From Leptolyngbya sp. 'hensonii' (lineage in GTDB: Bacteria; Cyanobacteriota; Cyanobacteriia; GCF-001939115): a DNA stretch of 64,000 nucleotides. The translations under genes and the position numbers were made by a program. This document shows, piece after piece, positions 49,357-64,000 of this stretch (position 1 is its first letter; every line of letters begins with the position of its first letter). The stretch spans positions 72,869-136,868 of the forward strand of contig NZ_MQTZ01000017.1 in the NCBI RefSeq assembly GCF_001939115.1. The letters run 5' to 3'. The notes under the pieces were generated by a model, which was given only the letters and a program-made list of their open reading frames with translations, was not told where the DNA came from and did no database searches.

Positions 49357-49875
49357 CTAAGCAACAGCGGAAGCAGCTTTATCAAAGTAGCTGCCCACTT
49401 CAGCCATCAGGCTGGCGCAGTCACCTCTGGTAATCCCGTTGGGATCGTTAGCAATTGCAATTGCAGCATCCTTCATTTTCTTCACACCAGCTGCCACAGA
49501 AGCACCAGGGGTACCCAGAGCCAGGTAGGTTTCCCGCAGGCCATTCAGGCAACGATCGTCAAGAACGGAAGCATCACCTGCGAAGATCGCATAGGTGACA
49601 TAGCGCAGGATAATTTCCATGTCGCGCAGACAAGCTGCCATGCGACGGCTGGTGTAAGCATTGCCACCGGGAGCAATCAGTTGGGGCTGCTCAGCAAACA
49701 GAGCCCGAGCTGCATTCGCCACGATCGTGGACGAGTTGCCGGTGATGCGGTTTACAACATCCATGCGCTTACTGCCATCAGCAACAAGTGCGCTCAGAGC
49801 ATCCAGTTGAGCAGAACTTAGATATTCGCCCCGTGCGTCAGCCTGGGAGACCACCTTTGCAAATGCGTCGAACAT
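49357..49875 (-). CDS. cpcB1: C-phycocyanin beta subunit, copy 1
   Basis: A 172-residue subunit of the phycocyanin rod trimer, carrying phycocyanobilin on Cys82 ([13 protein letters not shown]) and Cys153 (RGDCASL). Asn72 methylation context and the [25 protein letters not shown] segment are typical. It is first gene of the cpc1 cluster. CCTAATTT-region upstream reads AGGAGATTGAG before the ATG on the coding strand, a strong ribosome-binding site. Confidence 0.96.
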
Positions 49876-55710: not shown

Positions 55711-55887
55711 GAACACAAACCTAAGCGATATCCTCCACTGTAATCCGAAGATTGATCCCCGATCGCATGGCCCCCGGTAGGACAATCAAGGTTCCTAGGT
55801 CAGGACAACCTGCAGGACTGCAGAATAGCTTCCCGAAACATGGGAAAATGCAGGAGATTAGGACAGTCTAATTCTGGATGTTTCACG

Positions 55888-56469
55888 ATGACGAAACCAC
55901 CCTTGAGTGAAAAAGTACGGGAGCTGATTCAGAAAGCGCGAATTGTCAGCTTTACCACCTGGCACAACCTCTATCCAGCGTCGCTGCTGGCCCAATTCCA
56001 GGCCGCTGATGATGAAGGACGCTATCTCACCGATGCAGAGTTGGAGCAAATTGAGCTTCTGTCTCCGCATCCATCGGGATCGATCGGGGTGGCCCAGCAT
56101 CTGCGCGATCAGGTGCGGGAGATCGTCGATGAAGCCCGATCTCAGGTGCTGGTCACTTTCCCCACCATTACAGAACCAGGGGGTGGCCTGTATCCCCCCG
56201 AACGGGCAGAAGCCTGCTGGCGTGACTTCTGGCATTTCCTGCGCTGCATCACCTACGGCATTGCAGGTAGTCGCACGGATTACACCAGCCAGGAAGGGTT
56301 GAATTACATGCAGTTGCTCTATCAAGAATTACAGGTGCCGTTAGATGCCATGGTGGTGGGTCTGGAAGGGATCAAAACTGCCAGCTTGAAGCGGGTAGAA
56401 GCAGAGCAGCAAGCCGCACTAGCCCCCTATTTTGATCACCTGATTGAGCAGTTAAAGCAATTTCGTTAA
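55888..56469 (+). CDS. unassigned phycobiliprotein-fold protein
   Basis: A 193-residue protein with a phycobilisome-protein (PF00502-like) globin fold. FQAADDEGRYLTDAELEQIELL matches helix Y/A of phycobiliproteins, and EACWRDFWHFLRCITYGIAG matches the CLRDMEIxLRYVTYA helix with the bilin-type cysteine in place. It is clearly not ApcA, B, D or F, nor CpcA/B: there are insertions (ITEPGGGLYPPE), a C-terminal tail and a second Cys in the helix. Whether it binds bilin is unknown. It is convergent with the cpc2 operon. Confidence 0.8.
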   Translation: MTKPPLSEKVRELIQKARIVSFTTWHNLYPASLLAQFQAADDEGRYLTDAELEQIELLSPHPSGSIGVAQHLRDQVREIVDEARSQVLVTFPTITEPGGGLYPPERAEACWRDFWHFLRCITYGIAGSRTDYTSQEGLNYMQLLYQELQVPLDAMVVGLEGIKTASLKRVEAEQQAALAPYFDHLIEQLKQFR

Positions 56470-56602: not shown

Positions 56603-56869
56603 TTAGCCTTCTCCCTCAGGAGCTGGAGCTGCTGGAACTGCTTGCAGAGGACGAATACCCACGATCGTGCCTCCCAGGCGGGAGATGCGTTGCATCTCCT
56701 CATTCATGCGACTGAAAGGAACTTGAATCAAGGTTGTGCTGCTATGGCGCACGGGATAACCATTGTTATCCGTTTGATCATTTTGCCGGAGACCAGTCAC
56801 TTCATAGACGAAAGTGCGGTTTTCCGAGGATGAACCGGAAGCTCTTACCAATACAGAAGGTCCCAACAT
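56603..56869 (-). CDS. cpcD: rod-capping linker CpcD
   Basis: An 88-residue small linker that caps the core-distal end of phycocyanin rods. The CpcD-type fold is visible from FVYEVTGL to STTLIQVPFSRMNEEMQRISRLGGTIVGIRPL. It ends in a short Ala/Pro/Glu tail. Its length and place as last gene of the cpcB2 operon match cpcD2 of Fremyella-type inducible operons. The gap to the preceding linker gene is 108 bp. Confidence 0.93.
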   Translation of the reverse strand: MLGPSVLVRASGSSSENRTFVYEVTGLRQNDQTDNNGYPVRHSSTTLIQVPFSRMNEEMQRISRLGGTIVGIRPLQAVPAAPAPEGEG

Positions 56870-56977: not shown

Positions 56978-57844
56978 CTATTGAGCCAGCGTAACGCTCG
57001 CAACCTTTCCACCCAGCTTGTTGATTTGTTGCAGGGTATTCGAGAGCTGCTCGTAAGGAACAATAAATTCCTTATTGCTGCGACGGATTTTCGGATATCC
57101 GGGCAGACTAGTGCCTGCGACTTCAATTCGGTACAACCGATCGGTGGATCCGATGGAGGATCGACCAAAAGTTCGATTGGGCGTTGTTCCTTGCTTGGCG
57201 GGCAGATAGGCAAATCCCTCGCTGCCCCCTGAAGGGGCAATCACCGCAGAGACTGTATTTTTAGCCAGTTCACCGGCCAGACGGGAACCAGAGCCTAACT
57301 GGGACCGATCGCTGTTGGCATAGCCCCGGTAGAGCCGGAACATGCGGGTAAACCCGGCCAGCTTCTGGCTGGTTTGGGTAGAAAATCCCCGGTAGTAGGG
57401 CACGATCGTATCTCCGAAGTTAGCCTCGTACTCATCCGAGTCGATATAGGAATCGATATCAGCATCAAAGCCTGCATTCTGATATCGATCCAAGTGCTCA
57501 ATCACCTCAGCTTCGTCGTAAGGAGCACGTCCCAGCAGGTGTTTGAAGTTCAATTCAATCACCCGGGTTTGAAAATTGGGATACAGAAACTTGGTTTTAT
57601 ACAGATCCGTTTTAGCCAGAGCCCGAACAAAATCCCTGACTGTTAATTGACCATTGGCCAGCAGGGACTCCAGGGCTGTCAGCCGTTCCGATTGCATCAG
57701 GTAATCATTCCCCAACACCTGACGGTAAATTGCCTGGACCACAGTCTTAGCATCTTCCGGTGTCCAGTTAGGACGCAACTCCAGAGGATAAGTTTCGCTA
57801 AAGGCTGCCGTCCCCAAACGGGATGCCGCAGTTGTAATGGCCAC
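56978..57844 (-). CDS. cpcI: phycocyanin rod linker (second, CpcI/CpcC-type)
   Basis: A 288-residue rod linker: a PBS-linker domain (about residues 30-175, [21 protein letters not shown]... and [23 protein letters not shown]) joined by a Ser/Gly-rich spacer to a C-terminal CpcD-like domain (RLYRIEVAG...[23 protein letters not shown]). It connects phycocyanin hexamers in the rod. Assigned as CpcI rather than CpcC by operon position only. It is closely related to the preceding linker gene, 61 bp away. Confidence 0.9.
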
Positions 57845-57905: not shown

Positions 57906-58724
57906 TCAGGCCGGAGAAATACTAATCACCCGACTACCCCGCTGATTCAGACGTTGGAGTGTGGGCGTGAGTTGTTCGTAGGTGACGAGATACTCACCCG
58001 GACTACGCCGAATTTGGGGAGTCCGATTGCTGCCAACCTGCTGCACCCGCACCCGATAGAGCTGACCTCGATCGCCACCCGCTGTCCCGGCCAGTCCCCG
58101 GCCAAAATGGGGCGTTTGCACCGGATTAGCGAGATTCCGAGCCAAATCTTGGGTTAGCCAGGCCGTTTTGTTTTTGCCCTGAGATCGATCGCTATTGGCA
58201 TAGCCTCGATAGAGTTGAAACATTCGGTTAAAGCCAACTGTTTTTTGCCCTCGTTGTGTTTCAAACCCCCGATAATAGGGAACGATCGCGTCTCCAAAAT
58301 TTTCTTGATATTCAAATGAATCAATATAGGAATTGATCTCGGCTTCATACCCTGCCTGGGTGTAGAGATCAACATGGTAAGAAATTTCTGACTCATCGTA
58401 AGGGGCACGACCGAGCAGATGTTTAAAGTTCAACTCAATAAAGCGAACTTGCGGGGTTGAATAAAAAAACTTACAACGATAAAGCTCAGATTGAGCCAGG
58501 GCTCGCACAAAATCTTGAACACTAATATTTCCCTGACGCAGTAGGGATTCCGCATTGGTCAGGCGCTCATTTTGCATCAGGTGCTCGTTGCCAAATACTT
58601 GCCGATAGGCAGTATAAATGACGGCTTGAATATCCTCTTCCATCCAGTTTGGCCGTAGTTCAATGGGAGAAGCCCCTGCAAAAGGCTCAAATCCTAGCTG
58701 TCTGGCTGCCGTAGAACTGGTCAT
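57906..58724 (-). CDS. cpcH: phycocyanin rod linker (first, CpcH/CpcC-type)
   Basis: A 272-residue rod linker with the same layout as its neighbour: a PBS-linker domain ([26 protein letters not shown]...), a spacer and a CpcD-like domain ending [29 protein letters not shown]. The ATG at 58724 ([11 protein letters not shown]) has GGGAGA upstream; a longer frame to 58799 is rejected. The tandem of two linkers after cpcA2 matches the cpcB2A2H2I2D2 order of Fremyella. CpcC would be an equally valid name. Confidence 0.9.
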
Positions 58725-58758
58725 GACCCAATCTCCCGAATTGCAATGAGTAAAACAA

Positions 58759-58824
58759 TGCCCAGAACCCCAGAAAACCATCCATGCCATAACTAGCATT
58801 CACAGTCTTCCGTTGTTCTGGGCA
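58759..58824 (-). promoter_or_regulatory. long-loop inverted repeat after cpcA2
   Basis: Perfect 10-bp arms TGCCCAGAAC (58759-58768) and GTTCTGGGCA (58815-58824), starting about 11 nt after the cpcA2 stop on the coding strand. No T-run follows. Position and design mirror the repeat after cpcA1 although the sequence differs. It probably stabilises the cpcBA transcript and lowers linker expression. Confidence 0.65.
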
Positions 58825-58835
58825 CAAGCAAACCC

Positions 58836-59324
58836 TTAGCTCAGGGCGTTGATCGCATAGTCAATGTAGGAATTAGCTTCTACAGCGGGGTCGCCGCTCA
58901 GACCATGATTGGCTTTGATGTGCTTGAGAGCTTCAACATACCAGCTGGGAGCCAGGTCGAAGGTCTTGTTGATTTCAGCCAGACCACCGATCAGGTAGTC
59001 ATCCAGAGGACCGGTACCGCCTGCAACCAGACAGTAGGTGATGATGCGGATGTAGTAGCCGATGTCCCGTACACACTTGGCTTTACCAGCGGGGGTAGAA
59101 GCGAAGTTATTGCCCTGCATTTGGGTGGTGTAGGGGAACTTCTGATACACTGCGTTAGCGGCAGCATCAGCCAGACCTGCGGCCTTAGAGCTCAGAGCTT
59201 TCGCTGCATCCAGGCTGGCAGTTGCCTGACGGTAGCGACCAAATGCGACCTGCATCTCAGTGGAGCTGAGAAAGCGTCCTTGAGAATCTGCTGCAGCGAC
59301 TGCTTCTGTTAAAGGTGTTTTCAT
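58836..59324 (-). CDS. cpcA2: C-phycocyanin alpha subunit, copy 2 (probably inducible)
   Basis: A 162-residue CpcA with the bilin cysteine in [15 protein letters not shown]. It differs from CpcA1 at scattered positions in helices A-E (for example [27 protein letters not shown]) but is identical over the last ~25 residues. It belongs to the second operon, which has no lyase genes of its own, so CpcE/F from cpc1 must serve both. The 147-bp gap to cpcB2 holds tandem repeats. Confidence 0.96.
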
Positions 59325-59471: not shown

Positions 59472-59990
59472 TTAACCGACTGCTGCAGCAGCACGATCGA
59501 AGTAGCTGCCTAATTCAGCCATCAGGGAGCTACAATCGCCACGGGTAACACCATTGGGGTCATTAGCGATTGCAATGGCAGCTTCTTTCATCTTGGCTAC
59601 GCCAGCTGCAACGGAAGCACCGGGAACACCCAGAGCCAGGTAGGTCTCACGCAGACCATTCAGGCAACGATCTTCCAGAACGGAAGCATCACCCGTGAAA
59701 GCTGCATAGGTCACGTAGCGCAGGACGATTTCCATGTCCCGCAGACAGGCAGCCATGCGACGGTTGGTATAGGCATTACCACCGGGAGCAATCAGCTGGG
59801 GCTGCTCAGCAAACAGAGCCCGAGCTGCATTCGCCACGATCGTGGAGGAGTTACCGGTGATGCGGTTGACCACATCCATCCGCTTGGGACCTTCGGCAAC
59901 CAGTTTCTTCAGCGCGTCGATTTGAGCATCACTGATGTAATCGCCCCGGGTATCTGCCTGAGACACAACTCTTGTAAACGCATCTAACAT
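59472..59990 (-). CDS. cpcB2: C-phycocyanin beta subunit, copy 2 (probably inducible)
   Basis: A 172-residue CpcB with both bilin cysteines (Cys82 in [13 protein letters not shown], Cys153 in RGDCSSL). It is highly similar to CpcB1, with differences such as [18 protein letters not shown] and YAAFTGDAS. It heads the cpc2 operon. On the coding strand TTAGGAGATG precedes the ATG, an excellent ribosome-binding site. An exact L box lies about 360 bp upstream, indicating RcaC-controlled, red-light-induced expression in the Fremyella model. Confidence 0.96.
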
Positions 59991-60113: not shown

Positions 60114-60347
60114 AGACGCAGAGAAGAATAAGGAGAGCTCAGCCTTTGTACTGTCGTTCAACTCAGAACACCAGCAGTACGACTCAGCAAGTGCTGTAAA
60201 TATCAACAAGAAAAACTTCCCAAAGACTCACAGACTGAGGTAAAGGAAATACCGTACAATGAACTTTGAGGAACCTGAACCCCGACCCCTGAGGGTCAAA
60301 GGGTTCAGCGGCTTTCAAACCAGTACCCTTGATTAAAGCAATCTGCT

Positions 60348-60365
60348 TGTGCAATTTTTGTGCAA
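60348..60365 (-). promoter_or_regulatory. L box upstream of cpcB2
   Basis: The minus strand reads TTGCACA-AAAA-TTGCACA, an exact match to the L-box consensus TTGCACA-N4-TTGCACA bound by RcaC in Fremyella diplosiphon. It lies upstream of, and co-oriented with, cpcB2. Confidence 0.85.
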
Positions 60366-60682: not shown

Positions 60683-61426
60683 TTAGGCGACATAGTCAAA
60701 CAGCATGGTGTTCATATAACGATCGGTCCATTCCTCTCCAAAGGATTTCTCCAGGACACGCCGAGTTTTATCGTTTTGCTGCTGCTTCGTACAGTAGTAT
60801 CGCTGCCCGGCCAACACCGTGGCCACATCGCGGCTAGAGGTCAAAGGTGTCGTTTGGCTGGCAATCTGACAGTGAATGGTCAGGAAGGACCGCACCCGAT
60901 CGAGAAACTCCTCCTCTTCTGGAGTTCCAACAGGCCGAACAAACAAACAAAATTCGGAAAAGATATCCCCCCATTCCGGTAATGCCCGGGGTTGGGAAAA
61001 CTGCGGCGAGGGTAGAGCCGACAGAGCCGCCCGATAGGCACTGGGCAAAATTCGATCGGCACTGACGGGGGAAAGATCCGCGATCGCAGCACTAATGGCA
61101 CCCCCACGGCCTCCTACCAGATCAGCCCCAAAAATCGGCAGGGCATATTCAGGATTCGGAAACATCACACAGTGCAAAATATCCAGATGATTACCAACCT
61201 GGGCCAGTTCCAGATGCAACTTACGAAACTGAGGCGCTTGATAGCAACGGTTTTCGATCACCAGGCGTTCCCCTTCCAGGCAGCCCTCAATGTAGCCCAG
61301 ATCTTCCGGAACCCGGTAAGGAGACACCGTCAGTTGGCTCAGCCAGATTTCTTCAATACAATCTGCCAACTTGCGAATCAGAGCATGCTGCTGGTTTCGT
61401 AATGATGTTTGCACAGGCTTCAACAT
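60683..61426 (-). CDS. pcyA: phycocyanobilin:ferredoxin oxidoreductase
   Basis: A 247-residue bilin reductase that performs the four-electron reduction of biliverdin IX-alpha to phycocyanobilin, the chromophore of phycocyanin and allophycocyanin. E73, H85 and D102 correspond to the essential E76, H88 and D105 of Synechocystis PcyA (in HLELAQ, ILHCVMFP and FGADLV). IENRCYQAPQFRKLHLEL is diagnostic. An L-box-like site upstream suggests that it is induced together with cpc2. Confidence 0.95.
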   Translation of the reverse strand: MLKPVQTSLRNQQHALIRKLADCIEEIWLSQLTVSPYRVPEDLGYIEGCLEGERLVIENRCYQAPQFRKLHLELAQVGNHLDILHCVMFPNPEYALPIFGADLVGGRGGAISAAIADLSPVSADRILPSAYRAALSALPSPQFSQPRALPEWGDIFSEFCLFVRPVGTPEEEEFLDRVRSFLTIHCQIASQTTPLTSSRDVATVLAGQRYYCTKQQQNDKTRRVLEKSFGEEWTDRYMNTMLFDYVA

Positions 61427-61566
61427 ATCGATCTATATGAGGATAGGATTTATATCAATTTGCAGAATCTTGGCTACAACGCTCTCGGCCTAAGGCTACC
61501 AGGCAGAAACTTAACGATATAACCTGAATCAAAGCAATGGGTATTTACCTACACTGGCCTATAGCC

Positions 61567-61584
61567 CGTGCAAAATGTGTGCAA
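61567..61584 (-). promoter_or_regulatory. L-box-like site upstream of pcyA
   Basis: The minus strand reads TTGCACA-CATT-TTGCACG, one mismatch from the L-box consensus, oriented as at cpcB2 and 141 bp upstream of the pcyA start. A possible -10 hexamer TATATC lies about 46 bp further downstream (61516-61521). Confidence 0.75.
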
Positions 61585-61657: not shown

Positions 61658-63580
61658 CTAACTGGCCCAGGCTTTTACCCGCTGGAGACGATTCAGAATC
61701 CGATTCGCCAGATCAATCCCCATCACCGGTTTGCACAGGTAATCATCCGCACCCACCGTGAATGCCTGATTTTGACTCTTTACATCCGTTAACACGCTCA
61801 GAAATAAAACAGGCAGCCGTTGCCAGCGCGGATCGCTGCGCAGAATCTGACAGAGTTCAAAGCCATTAATCTGCGGCATATTGACATCCAGGACGATCGC
61901 ATCCGGTGTCACAGCCTGCAGCACCGTCCAGAACTCCTGTGGGTCTGCCAGGGTTGTCACTTTAAAGCCCCAGGGTTTGAGCAGGGTGGGTAAGGTGCGC
62001 AACCAGGCCCGATCGTCATCCACAATCATCACTGTACTGGGCAGATGAGATCCTGATAACATCTGCACTACTGCAGCAATCACCTGTTCTGGAATCGCAG
62101 AGGGTTCTAAAAACAGTTTGCCCCCCCGACGGAGAATCTCCAGACGACCCTGCAGGTCACCCTGGTCCGTCACCACCAGAATCGGCAACGTCGGATAGCG
62201 CCGTGCAAATTCCGACAAGAGGAGCAGGGAGTCCAGGGAAGGGAGCCTGGGCTCAGACCCTGACTCCGCTTGGGAAGCTCCTGAGGGCAAGCGGAAGAGC
62301 AGCGCATCCGGAGGAGTCTCTGAGGTCAACCAACCTTCTGCCACATCCAGGGTTGGTGAAATCGCAGTGCGAATCCCCCGACTTTCCGCCACCTTCACCA
62401 GCGATTGGGTAAACCCGGCCTCTCCACCCAGAATCAGCAGCAGGGGTGCATGTCCCGTGGGCAGTTGAGAGGGCTCCACCAAGGTCACACTCTGAATCTC
62501 GTCCTGCAGGGCCGTTACCAGAACGTCCAGGAGCGGCGCATGCTTTGGAAGCAAGGGCTGGCGACCTGCCAGCCAGTGCTCCACCTGACGAGCCAAGTGC
62601 ATGGCCTTCATTTGCCCAAAAATGCCCAGCGTTCCAGCCAACTTATGGGCCATTTGTTGCCCCTGAGCCTGCTGTTGAGCATCCAGACGATCGGACTGTA
62701 ACGCCTCAACAATGGCCGAGAGCAGAGCCAATTGTTCCAGACTCTTGGGTTTCGTGGTCATCCAGGTTTCGTTGAGAAAAGCCAGGTATTGCTGTTGAGC
62801 ATCGGCTGATCGGGGATTCAGTCGCCCTGATCCAGCATCGTGCAGCGGTTCTGGTACTCCAGCAGGCACATCCTGAACCACCGACAGGGCTGTTCCAGCC
62901 TCTAGGGCAGGTGCTTTCAGGTAGTATCCCCGACCATGCATCGTGGCAATGAAATCCTGGGGAGCCCCAGCCATCAGCAATTTTTGACGGACCCGTCGGA
63001 TATGGGAGCGAACCGTCGCCTCGGAGGGAAATTCTTCCGAAGACCAGAGACGGTCCAGAATTTCCTCCGTACTGAAGACATGGTGACTGTCCTGCAGCAG
63101 CAATTCCAGCAGCTCATATTCTTTAGTTGTCAGACTTAAGAGTTGTCCGTTATAGGTCACCTCACAGGTGCTGGGATTGAGCAGCAACTCCCCCCAGGTT
63201 AATAACGGAAAGGGATTAGAACTTCCCCGCCGCAGCAAAGCCCGAATTCGGGCAACCAGTTCAGCCTGGTCAAATGGCTTCACCACATAGTCATCGGCTC
63301 CAGCATCCAATCCCTGCACTTTAGCCGTGCTACTTTCCTCAGCTGTTAGCAACAAAATTGGCGTCGCATAGCCTTCAGAACGAAATCGCTGACATAAACT
63401 AATGCCATCCAGTTTGGGCAGCATAATATCCAGCACAATCAGGTCATACTCAAACGTGGAACCATAGGTCCAGCCCATCTCCCCATCCTGAACCACATCC
63501 AGCACATAATGATGGGAAGCCAGACTCCGGGTCAGGACTGCAATACAGGACTCATCATCTTCCACTAGCAAGATTTTCAT
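61658..63580 (-). CDS. rcaC: complex response regulator, RcaC homologue
   Basis: A 640-residue four-module regulator. Receiver 1 is at residues 1-118 with phospho-Asp51. An OmpR/PhoB-type winged helix (about 125-222) ends in the wing MHGRGYYLKAP. An HPt domain (about 265-365) has His312 in AHKLAGTLG, and receiver 2 (about 516-635) has Asp565. Residues ~378-510 look like a further receiver lacking the phospho-Asp. Fremyella RcaC (651 aa) has the same order with D51, H316 and D576. It is predicted to bind L boxes at cpc2 and pcyA. The ATG at 63580 lies 8 bp after the rcaF stop. Confidence 0.85.
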   Translation of the reverse strand: MKILLVEDDESCIAVLTRSLASHHYVLDVVQDGEMGWTYGSTFEYDLIVLDIMLPKLDGISLCQRFRSEGYATPILLLTAEESSTAKVQGLDAGADDYVVKPFDQAELVARIRALLRRGSSNPFPLLTWGELLLNPSTCEVTYNGQLLSLTTKEYELLELLLQDSHHVFSTEEILDRLWSSEEFPSEATVRSHIRRVRQKLLMAGAPQDFIATMHGRGYYLKAPALEAGTALSVVQDVPAGVPEPLHDAGSGRLNPRSADAQQQYLAFLNETWMTTKPKSLEQLALLSAIVEALQSDRLDAQQQAQGQQMAHKLAGTLGIFGQMKAMHLARQVEHWLAGRQPLLPKHAPLLDVLVTALQDEIQSVTLVEPSQLPTGHAPLLLILGGEAGFTQSLVKVAESRGIRTAISPTLDVAEGWLTSETPPDALLFRLPSGASQAESGSEPRLPSLDSLLLLSEFARRYPTLPILVVTDQGDLQGRLEILRRGGKLFLEPSAIPEQVIAAVVQMLSGSHLPSTVMIVDDDRAWLRTLPTLLKPWGFKVTTLADPQEFWTVLQAVTPDAIVLDVNMPQINGFELCQILRSDPRWQRLPVLFLSVLTDVKSQNQAFTVGADDYLCKPVMGIDLANRILNRLQRVKAWAS

Positions 63581-63588
63581 ACAGACCA

Positions 63589-63966
63589 CTACCAATCCAG
63601 AATCCGGGTAATTTGTTCCGGCAAATCCAGAGAGTTAAAGGGCTTTGTAATCACCCCACTCACCCCCAAATCATTAAACTGACGTTTTTCTGCTGTCTGG
63701 GCTTTAGCCGTCAACAGGATGACCGGAATTTTTTCAGTCTCTGGATGAGCCTGCAGCGCCTTAAAGGTGGCAATTCCATCCATATCTGGCATCATCACAT
63801 CCAACAGAATCACATCTGGCTGTTCTATTTGAGCCGTTTGAATCCCAACTGGCCCGGAACTGGCCGTCAGCACATCCCAGCCCGTCACCATGCGAATACC
63901 AAATTGCACCACAGTTTGAATGGTTTCTTCGTCATCAATGATCAAAACACGTCTATTATTGGTCAT
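63589..63966 (-). CDS. rcaF: single-domain response regulator, RcaF homologue
   Basis: A 125-residue CheY-like receiver with acidic pocket DD (residues 11-12), phospho-Asp56 in VILLDVMMPDMDG and the Lys switch in ITKPFNSLD. RcaF of Fremyella is a similarly sized phosphate shuttle between kinase RcaE and RcaC. GGAGGGAGG precedes the ATG at 63966, which is favoured over the ATG at 63987. rcaC follows by 8 bp. Many cyanobacterial CheY proteins look alike, so the name rests mainly on adjacency to rcaC. Confidence 0.75.
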   Translation of the reverse strand: MTNNRRVLIIDDEETIQTVVQFGIRMVTGWDVLTASSGPVGIQTAQIEQPDVILLDVMMPDMDGIATFKALQAHPETEKIPVILLTAKAQTAEKRQFNDLGVSGVITKPFNSLDLPEQITRILDW

Positions 63967-64000
63967 CGGATGGTGACCTCCCTCCATCCCGTCAAAGCTA
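63963..64000 (-). CDS. partial frame, possible C-terminus of the upstream gene
   Basis: On the minus strand an open frame enters from the window edge, reads ...ALTGWREVTIR and stops with a TGA that overlaps the rcaF ATG (ATGA). This is the usual pattern of a coupled upstream gene, where a kinase such as RcaE would be expected. Eleven codons are too few to identify it. Confidence 0.35.
   Translation of the reverse strand, partial: ALTGWREVTIR

Follow-up and report, generated by a model that had tools for sequence, protein, structure and literature searches.

The stretch of Leptolyngbya sp. 'hensonii' DNA considered here, hereafter the window (64,000 nucleotides, numbered from its first letter), carries rcaF, rcaC, pcyA and cpcB2A2 contiguously on its minus strand, with three linker genes after cpcA2, as listed below together with a candidate rcaE found just beyond the window's end (G000 denotes this genome, C17 and the like its contigs).

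G000:C17:136870-139173, just past the window and next to rcaF: rcaE candidate, with PAS-GAF-PAS-HisKA-HATPase domains
63589-63987, minus strand: rcaF, a single receiver domain (PF00072 only)
61658-63580, minus strand: rcaC, response regulator with REC, OmpR-type wHTH, HPt and REC domains in that order (Pfam)
60683-61426, minus strand: pcyA, phycocyanobilin:ferredoxin oxidoreductase (NF002760, 346 bits, cut-off 206)
59472-59990, minus strand: cpcB2, C-phycocyanin beta subunit (TIGR01339, 322 bits, cut-off 279)
58836-59324, minus strand: cpcA2, C-phycocyanin alpha subunit (TIGR01338, 294.5 bits, cut-off 269)
57906-58799, minus strand: rod linker, cpcH2-like (PF00427 and CpcD domains; the true start is probably internal)
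56978-57844, minus strand: rod linker, cpcI2-like (PF00427 and CpcD domains)
56603-56869, minus strand: rod-capping linker, cpcD2-like (PF01383)

The rcaC reading frame opens at 63595, with the likely ATG at 63580; its product shares as much as 70% identity with full-length orthologs and retains D51, H312 and D565, the three residues predicted to serve the phosphorelay. We take the protochromic residues of RcaE to be E217, L249 and K261. Residues equivalent to this triad are conserved in the RcaE candidate, whose GAF domain can be aligned over its whole length with that of the solved RcaE (8k9o, 7ckv) and keeps the chromophore cysteine. In relatives, too, rcaF adjoins rcaE and rcaC. Three of the features by which type III systems are recognised are present, namely an RcaE with a green/red GAF and a histidine kinase, a single-domain RcaF between RcaE and RcaC, and phycoerythrin together with a second phycocyanin operon; the pigment genes of the genome comprise cpeBA on contig C28, pebA and pebB in the window, and three cpcBA pairs. 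Two further genes nearby deserve mention. Beside the cpc2 operon, at 55840-56469 on the plus strand, lies an orphan gene for a 209-aa phycobilisome-domain protein with some 50 extra N-terminal residues, whose best, albeit weak, match is allophycocyanin alpha. A DUF2656 gene sits between rcaE and cpeC both here (L035:4434-4925) and in relatives (L080, L083, L087, L097), a position that suggests a link to phycobilisomes.

Upstream of cpcB2, on the same strand and 357 nt away, lies TTGCACAAAAATTGCACA, i.e. two TTGCACA half-sites on either side of AAAA, with no mismatch to TTGCACA-N4-TTGCACA (14 fixed bases and a 4-bp spacer, the L box consensus as quoted in an earlier note on this DNA). The elements that we recognise around it are as follows.

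60348-60365, minus strand: L box of cpcB2, an exact match; about 40 related cpc promoters share the site, its orientation and the -10 spacing
60332-60340, minus strand: extended -10-like element TGC-TTTAAT, its hexamer TTTAAT at 60332-60337, 10 nt after the L box
60323-60326, minus strand: predicted transcription start region of cpcB2, placed from the -10 position; leader of about 333 nt
60261-60329, minus strand: conserved leader element, a match to our leader model R1 (57.5 bits; this sequence is among the 32 from which the model was built)
60275-60308, minus strand: leader hairpin CTGAACCC...GGGTTCAG (MFE of -23.1 kcal/mol for the 51-nt segment)

The earlier note had the sequence, coordinates and strand of this exact match right, and its judgement that a chance occurrence is very unlikely is borne out by the counts: the site is the only exact L box in the 64-kb window, where base composition predicts 0.0004, and the 5.94-Mb genome holds three against 0.038 expected. 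One-mismatch boxes are expected by chance about 1.6 times in the genome (42 x 0.038). At three mismatches the window contains 8 matches against 6.2 expected, which is chance level, so that only sites with no or one mismatch are meaningful; a three-mismatch match at 49857, near cpcB1, was discounted as being at that level. That cpcB1 (49357-49875) has no L box, as the same note maintained, agrees with the window scan, which found none nearby at up to two mismatches. One-mismatch sites at C2:94966, C5:19846 and C40:1036, none of them with a -10 at offset 10, were taken as chance.

The surroundings of the box are as constant as the box itself. All 43 cpc L boxes compared have one orientation, that of the gene, as do all 38 cpcB2 sites; TTTAAT or a close variant stands exactly 10 nt past the second half-site in 42, and the hexamer is preceded by a TGn motif whose G is likewise kept in 42 of the 43. 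The loci behind these figures were partly picked for having an L box; independence of that choice holds solely for orientation, -10 spacing, target genes and co-occurrence with RcaC. Opposite-orientation L boxes come without a -10 hexamer at offset 10, and the full promoter pattern is found in this genome, with no mismatch, at cpcB2 and cpcB3 only. PhoB-activated promoters of Escherichia coli (the pho box) are built of direct repeats, 7 bp long and recurring every 11 bp, and of a -10 element some 10 bp further on, the repeats replacing the -35 element. Because the L box promoter has this very geometry, we propose that RcaC replaces the -35 contact.

Is cpcB2 then the only gene of the region with such a site, as the earlier note supposed in naming one intergenic region where an RcaC site is predicted? 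This part of its account does not hold, since pcyA, too, has a conserved L box, which had been missed; with a further box before cpcB3 on contig C47, the notion of a unique cpcB2 site was rejected.

61567-61584, minus strand: TTGCACACATTTTGCACG, the pcyA L box, with one mismatch and 141 nt ahead of the gene
61551-61556, minus strand: pcyA -10-like CAGTGT, spaced 10 nt from the L box as at cpcB2

The final-G variant of this box recurs before pcyA in two relatives (L085 and L115), and 16 other loci likewise have an L box before pcyA, without exception in this orientation. At the pcyA sites the hexamer 10 nt past the box follows CANNNT, its C, A and last T being the same in all 17, and CAGTGT is a poor match to TATAAT.

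The box was then considered across 390 cyanobacterial genomes of the class, 26 of which count as RcaC-positive by virtue of a full-length RcaC that shares 51% identity or more with the present one. Exact L boxes are present in 61 of the 390, namely in 23 of the 26 genomes with a close full-length RcaC versus 38 of the 364 others, some of these 38 holding an RcaC that lacks the middle region and is therefore not counted among the 26; in the three RcaC-positive exceptions the promoter is built alike, around a box with one mismatch. For such shortened RcaC proteins (L209, L210, L225, L226, L227 and L233) the alignment is confined to residues 1-383 and 512-645, the middle part from HPt to the final receiver being absent, and L boxes still lie beside their genes. 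The fetched loci contain 84 non-redundant exact sites, 36 of them before cpcB2, nine before pcyA, five before cpcB3 and one before a cpcG-like gene. The remaining 33 have no phycobilisome gene from the query set beside them; they look mostly like chance occurrences, with a few cpc2-type promoters whose cpcB2 is absent from the draft. Every cpcB2, cpcB3 and pcyA site is oriented with its gene and the four cpeC sites (one mismatch each) are all opposite. Taken together with the adjoining rcaE-rcaF-rcaC genes, the orientation, spacing and -10 conserved in some 40 cpc promoters and the co-occurrence with RcaC uphold the reading of the site, already made in the earlier note, as the predicted RcaC L box of cpcB2. 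The cpcB2 site is, as far as sequence comparison can tell, a real and evolutionarily conserved switch sequence.

A few loci depart from the common pattern. In several draft genomes (L084/L198, L215 and L231) cpcH2 comes directly after the L-box promoter and cpcB2A2 is missing between them, a gap that probably reflects assembly collapse of repeated cpcBA copies. One family of small-genome cyanobacteria (L216-L220), in which no close RcaC was detected, has exact L-box sequences that adjoin none of the phycobilisome genes searched; their flanks are nearly identical in two genomes (G131 and G186), and they possibly belong to another element. Finally, in G121 (L204:2850-3269 on G121:C339) a cpc2-type promoter with a one-mismatch L box, TTGCTTTAAT and the full leader hairpin (51.2 bits) stands before cpeBA instead of cpcBA, directly after pcyA. 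Either the assembly is wrong here or promoters have been swapped, in which case phycoerythrin would come under red induction.

The conserved sequence extends beyond the promoter into the leader, where the hairpin begins about 20 nt past the predicted start. Leaders fold more stably than a downstream control segment (mean z of -1.90 versus -0.18; for the shortest leaders the control extends into the coding region). In a sequence-only alignment of 32 leaders all eight pairs of the outer stem show compensatory changes, and both-side changes number 25 cells versus 8.7 in shuffles, slid controls also giving lower counts. The outer-stem columns were picked by a pairing scan, which biases the percentage paired and makes the compensatory counts and shuffles the better evidence, the covariation counts themselves including a contribution from relatedness of the sequences. 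RNAalifold returned no pairs on the plain leader alignment, perhaps owing to the varying loop length, and a search of the leader against Rfam gave no relevant family and one sub-threshold match. Built without the L box, the leader model matches in 32 of the 390 genomes and has just two significant matches in this one, following the cpcB2 L box (57.5 bits) and the cpcB3 L box (38.9 bits); both leaders are in the training set, so that the informative part is the absence of further matches in the genome. The strongest independent test of the association between box and leader comes from five matches outside the training set, at positions for which the search had given no exact L box. Each of the five has an L box with a single mismatch and, spaced as expected, TTTAA(T); three of them fall in the RcaC-positive genomes without an exact box (G144, G087 and G072). 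A function of the leader hairpin is likely.

The reach of the predicted regulon can be followed further within this genome. The third phycocyanin operon has an exact L box at C47:42526-42543, outside the window, and cpcB3A3 with linkers and an L-box promoter recurs in G196, G243 (where the -10 hexamer is missing), G269 and G275. A divergent cpcG-like gene accompanies it in this genome and in the others except G269, where the contig breaks off; in G144 and G076, too, cpcB3A3 has an L-box promoter, its box with one mismatch. Since the leader hairpin of this genome is found only behind the cpcB2 and cpcB3 L boxes, cpc3 is assigned to the predicted RcaC regulon, in at least seven genomes. On contig C28, twin boxes 48 bp apart, one exact and one with a single mismatch (C28:48020-48085; L031:10021-10086), precede a cpcG-like gene by 150-198 bp in opposite orientation, on the strength of which red repression of that gene is predicted. 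The next gene upstream of the latter (L031:10328-11086) encodes a cpcL-like linker whose C-terminus carries a hydrophobic helix. Between cpeS and cpeBA, at C28:50911, lies a candidate L box with one mismatch, a few bases after a small ORF of 56 aa (L031:12737-12929) that is presumably NblA-like. No convincing L box was found at up to three mismatches upstream of cpeC (on C17) or of pebA, the candidate opposite-orientation sites being those on C28 before the cpcG-like gene and cpeS; because cpeC and pebAB have no such box, the system is filed as an RcaC red-activation branch and not as full canonical type III, and the full role of RcaC may differ from that in Fremyella diplosiphon.

The green side may instead be covered by another cluster (L250:4467-10574; G000:C17:176466-182573), in which a CcaS-like kinase of 923 aa (GAF, PAS repeats, kinase) adjoins cpeC2, cpeD2, a CpcG/CpcL-type linker and an ORF that we assume, from sequence resemblance, to be cpeR-like. 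A G-box-like repeat, CTTTCCGATTTTTTTCCGGTTT, lies upstream, and no L box occurs in the cluster at up to two mismatches. A division of labour in which RcaC governs red-side phycocyanin and CcaS/CcaR the green-side phycoerythrin linkers is plausible. Coexistence of RcaE and CcaS has been reported in three Calothrix strains (PMC9415938).

How would such a promoter operate? RcaC is known to bind L boxes and to activate cpc2 and pcyA in red light, boxes of the same orientation activating and opposite ones repressing (PMC8256508, summarising Li et al. 2008); the sites found here agree with that rule in that those of cpcB2, cpcB3 and pcyA share the orientation of their genes and the four cpeC sites are opposite. 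From the sequence and these precedents we infer RcaC binding, the phosphorelay, red induction, the start site and any role of the hairpin. In red light, RcaE would act as a kinase and pass phosphate via RcaF to RcaC, which, being of the OmpR/PhoB type, would occupy both TTGCACA half-sites as a dimer arranged head to tail, taking the place of a -35 element, and bring RNA polymerase to the extended -10 (TGC-TTTAAT) that follows at exactly 10 nt. Transcription would start near 60324 and produce a leader of about 333 nt, the 5' part of which would fold into the conserved hairpin. From the box at 61567-61584 RcaC would also activate pcyA, supplying phycocyanobilin for the extra phycocyanin, and from contig C47 the third phycocyanin operon. 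That the 18-bp site is the operator-promoter element of a red-light-induced cpcB2A2(H2I2D2) operon activated by RcaE-RcaF-RcaC is, in our estimation, highly probable; very probably, the sensor and the regulator use it to switch on extra blue light-harvesting pigments in red light. A wider proposal falls just short of being probable: that L-box cpc promoters carry a second regulatory layer, in the form of the covarying hairpin in the first ~70 nt acting on the mRNA (through stability, translation or attenuation), and that the RcaC regulon reaches cpc3 and, via the opposite-orientation twin boxes, the rod-core linker, the green branch having been passed to CcaS/CcaR.

Other readings of the cpcB2 site find some footing in the same data. 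An OmpR-family regulator other than RcaC, such as an RcaC paralogue or CcaR, might bind it in vivo, and the genome does encode RcaC-like proteins on further contigs (47% identity at C59) as well as the CcaS-like kinase cluster. L boxes, however, co-occur with close RcaC orthologs, often adjoining the boxes; in the CcaS-like cluster a G-box-like repeat of its own is present and, at up to two mismatches, no L box; and the CcaR G-box CTTTCCGATTTCTTTACGATTT (PMC8256508) is a different sequence, all of which renders another regulator very unlikely. It is, if anything, slightly harder to believe that the L box is real but silent at cpcB2, or a repressor site, with phycocyanin regulated otherwise. 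Opposite-orientation boxes farther from the start can repress (PMC8256508), and the four cpeC sites in relatives are indeed opposite and without a -10, but the same orientation at 43 of 43 cpc sites, 42 of them with a -10-like hexamer at the fixed 10-nt offset, is the geometry expected of activation. Mere chance would have to be considered whenever a known motif is looked for in a long sequence; but the expectation for the window is tiny, and the conservation of promoter and leader around the site in about 40 promoters already refutes this reading, the least credible of all. The preferred reading, activation by RcaC in red light, in turn gives a description with predictive value for promoters activated by RcaC, namely the box followed after 10 nt by an extended -10 and then by the leader hairpin. 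This description singles out RcaC targets genome-wide, cpcB3 among them, and parts putative activating from repressing sites.

The system that comes closest is the type III L box of cpc2 and pcyA in Fremyella diplosiphon and Synechococcus PCC 7335 (PMC8256508), which has the same 14 bases, 4-bp spacer, targets and orientation, with RcaE, RcaF and RcaC alongside. In contrast to it, the present genome has no cpeC box and has extra boxes before cpcB3 and, as an opposite-orientation pair, before the C28 cpcG-like gene, and activity here is predicted from sequence. That pair resembles the cpeC L box, which mediates red repression of a phycoerythrin linker operon, in its orientation and in having no -10 at offset 10, but precedes a cpcG-like linker gene rather than cpeC, whereas four relatives do have the cpeC box. 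The PhoB class shares repeat length, period and -10 distance and differs in half-site sequence and regulator, so that the likeness is one of mechanism and not of membership. Systems with CcaS/CcaR and the G-box (types I, II and VII) have their counterpart in the CcaS-like kinase cluster of the same genome, the DNA element being different and none of its type seen at cpcB2. Most worth pursuing are the hairpin conserved in the leader, the promoter of cpc3 and the putative rewiring of the green side; a literature search, with subscription papers mostly outside it, found no report of a leader hairpin or of an L box before cpc3, and the novelty of both is unproven. The L box switch itself is of a known kind, here with an unusually complete promoter, a leader hairpin absent from Rfam and sister sites elsewhere in the genome. 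With it, Leptolyngbya sp. 'hensonii', the sole genome of its order in the comparison, joins the species predicted to acclimate to light colour, and both its hairpin and its mixed RcaE and CcaS-like wiring are directly testable.
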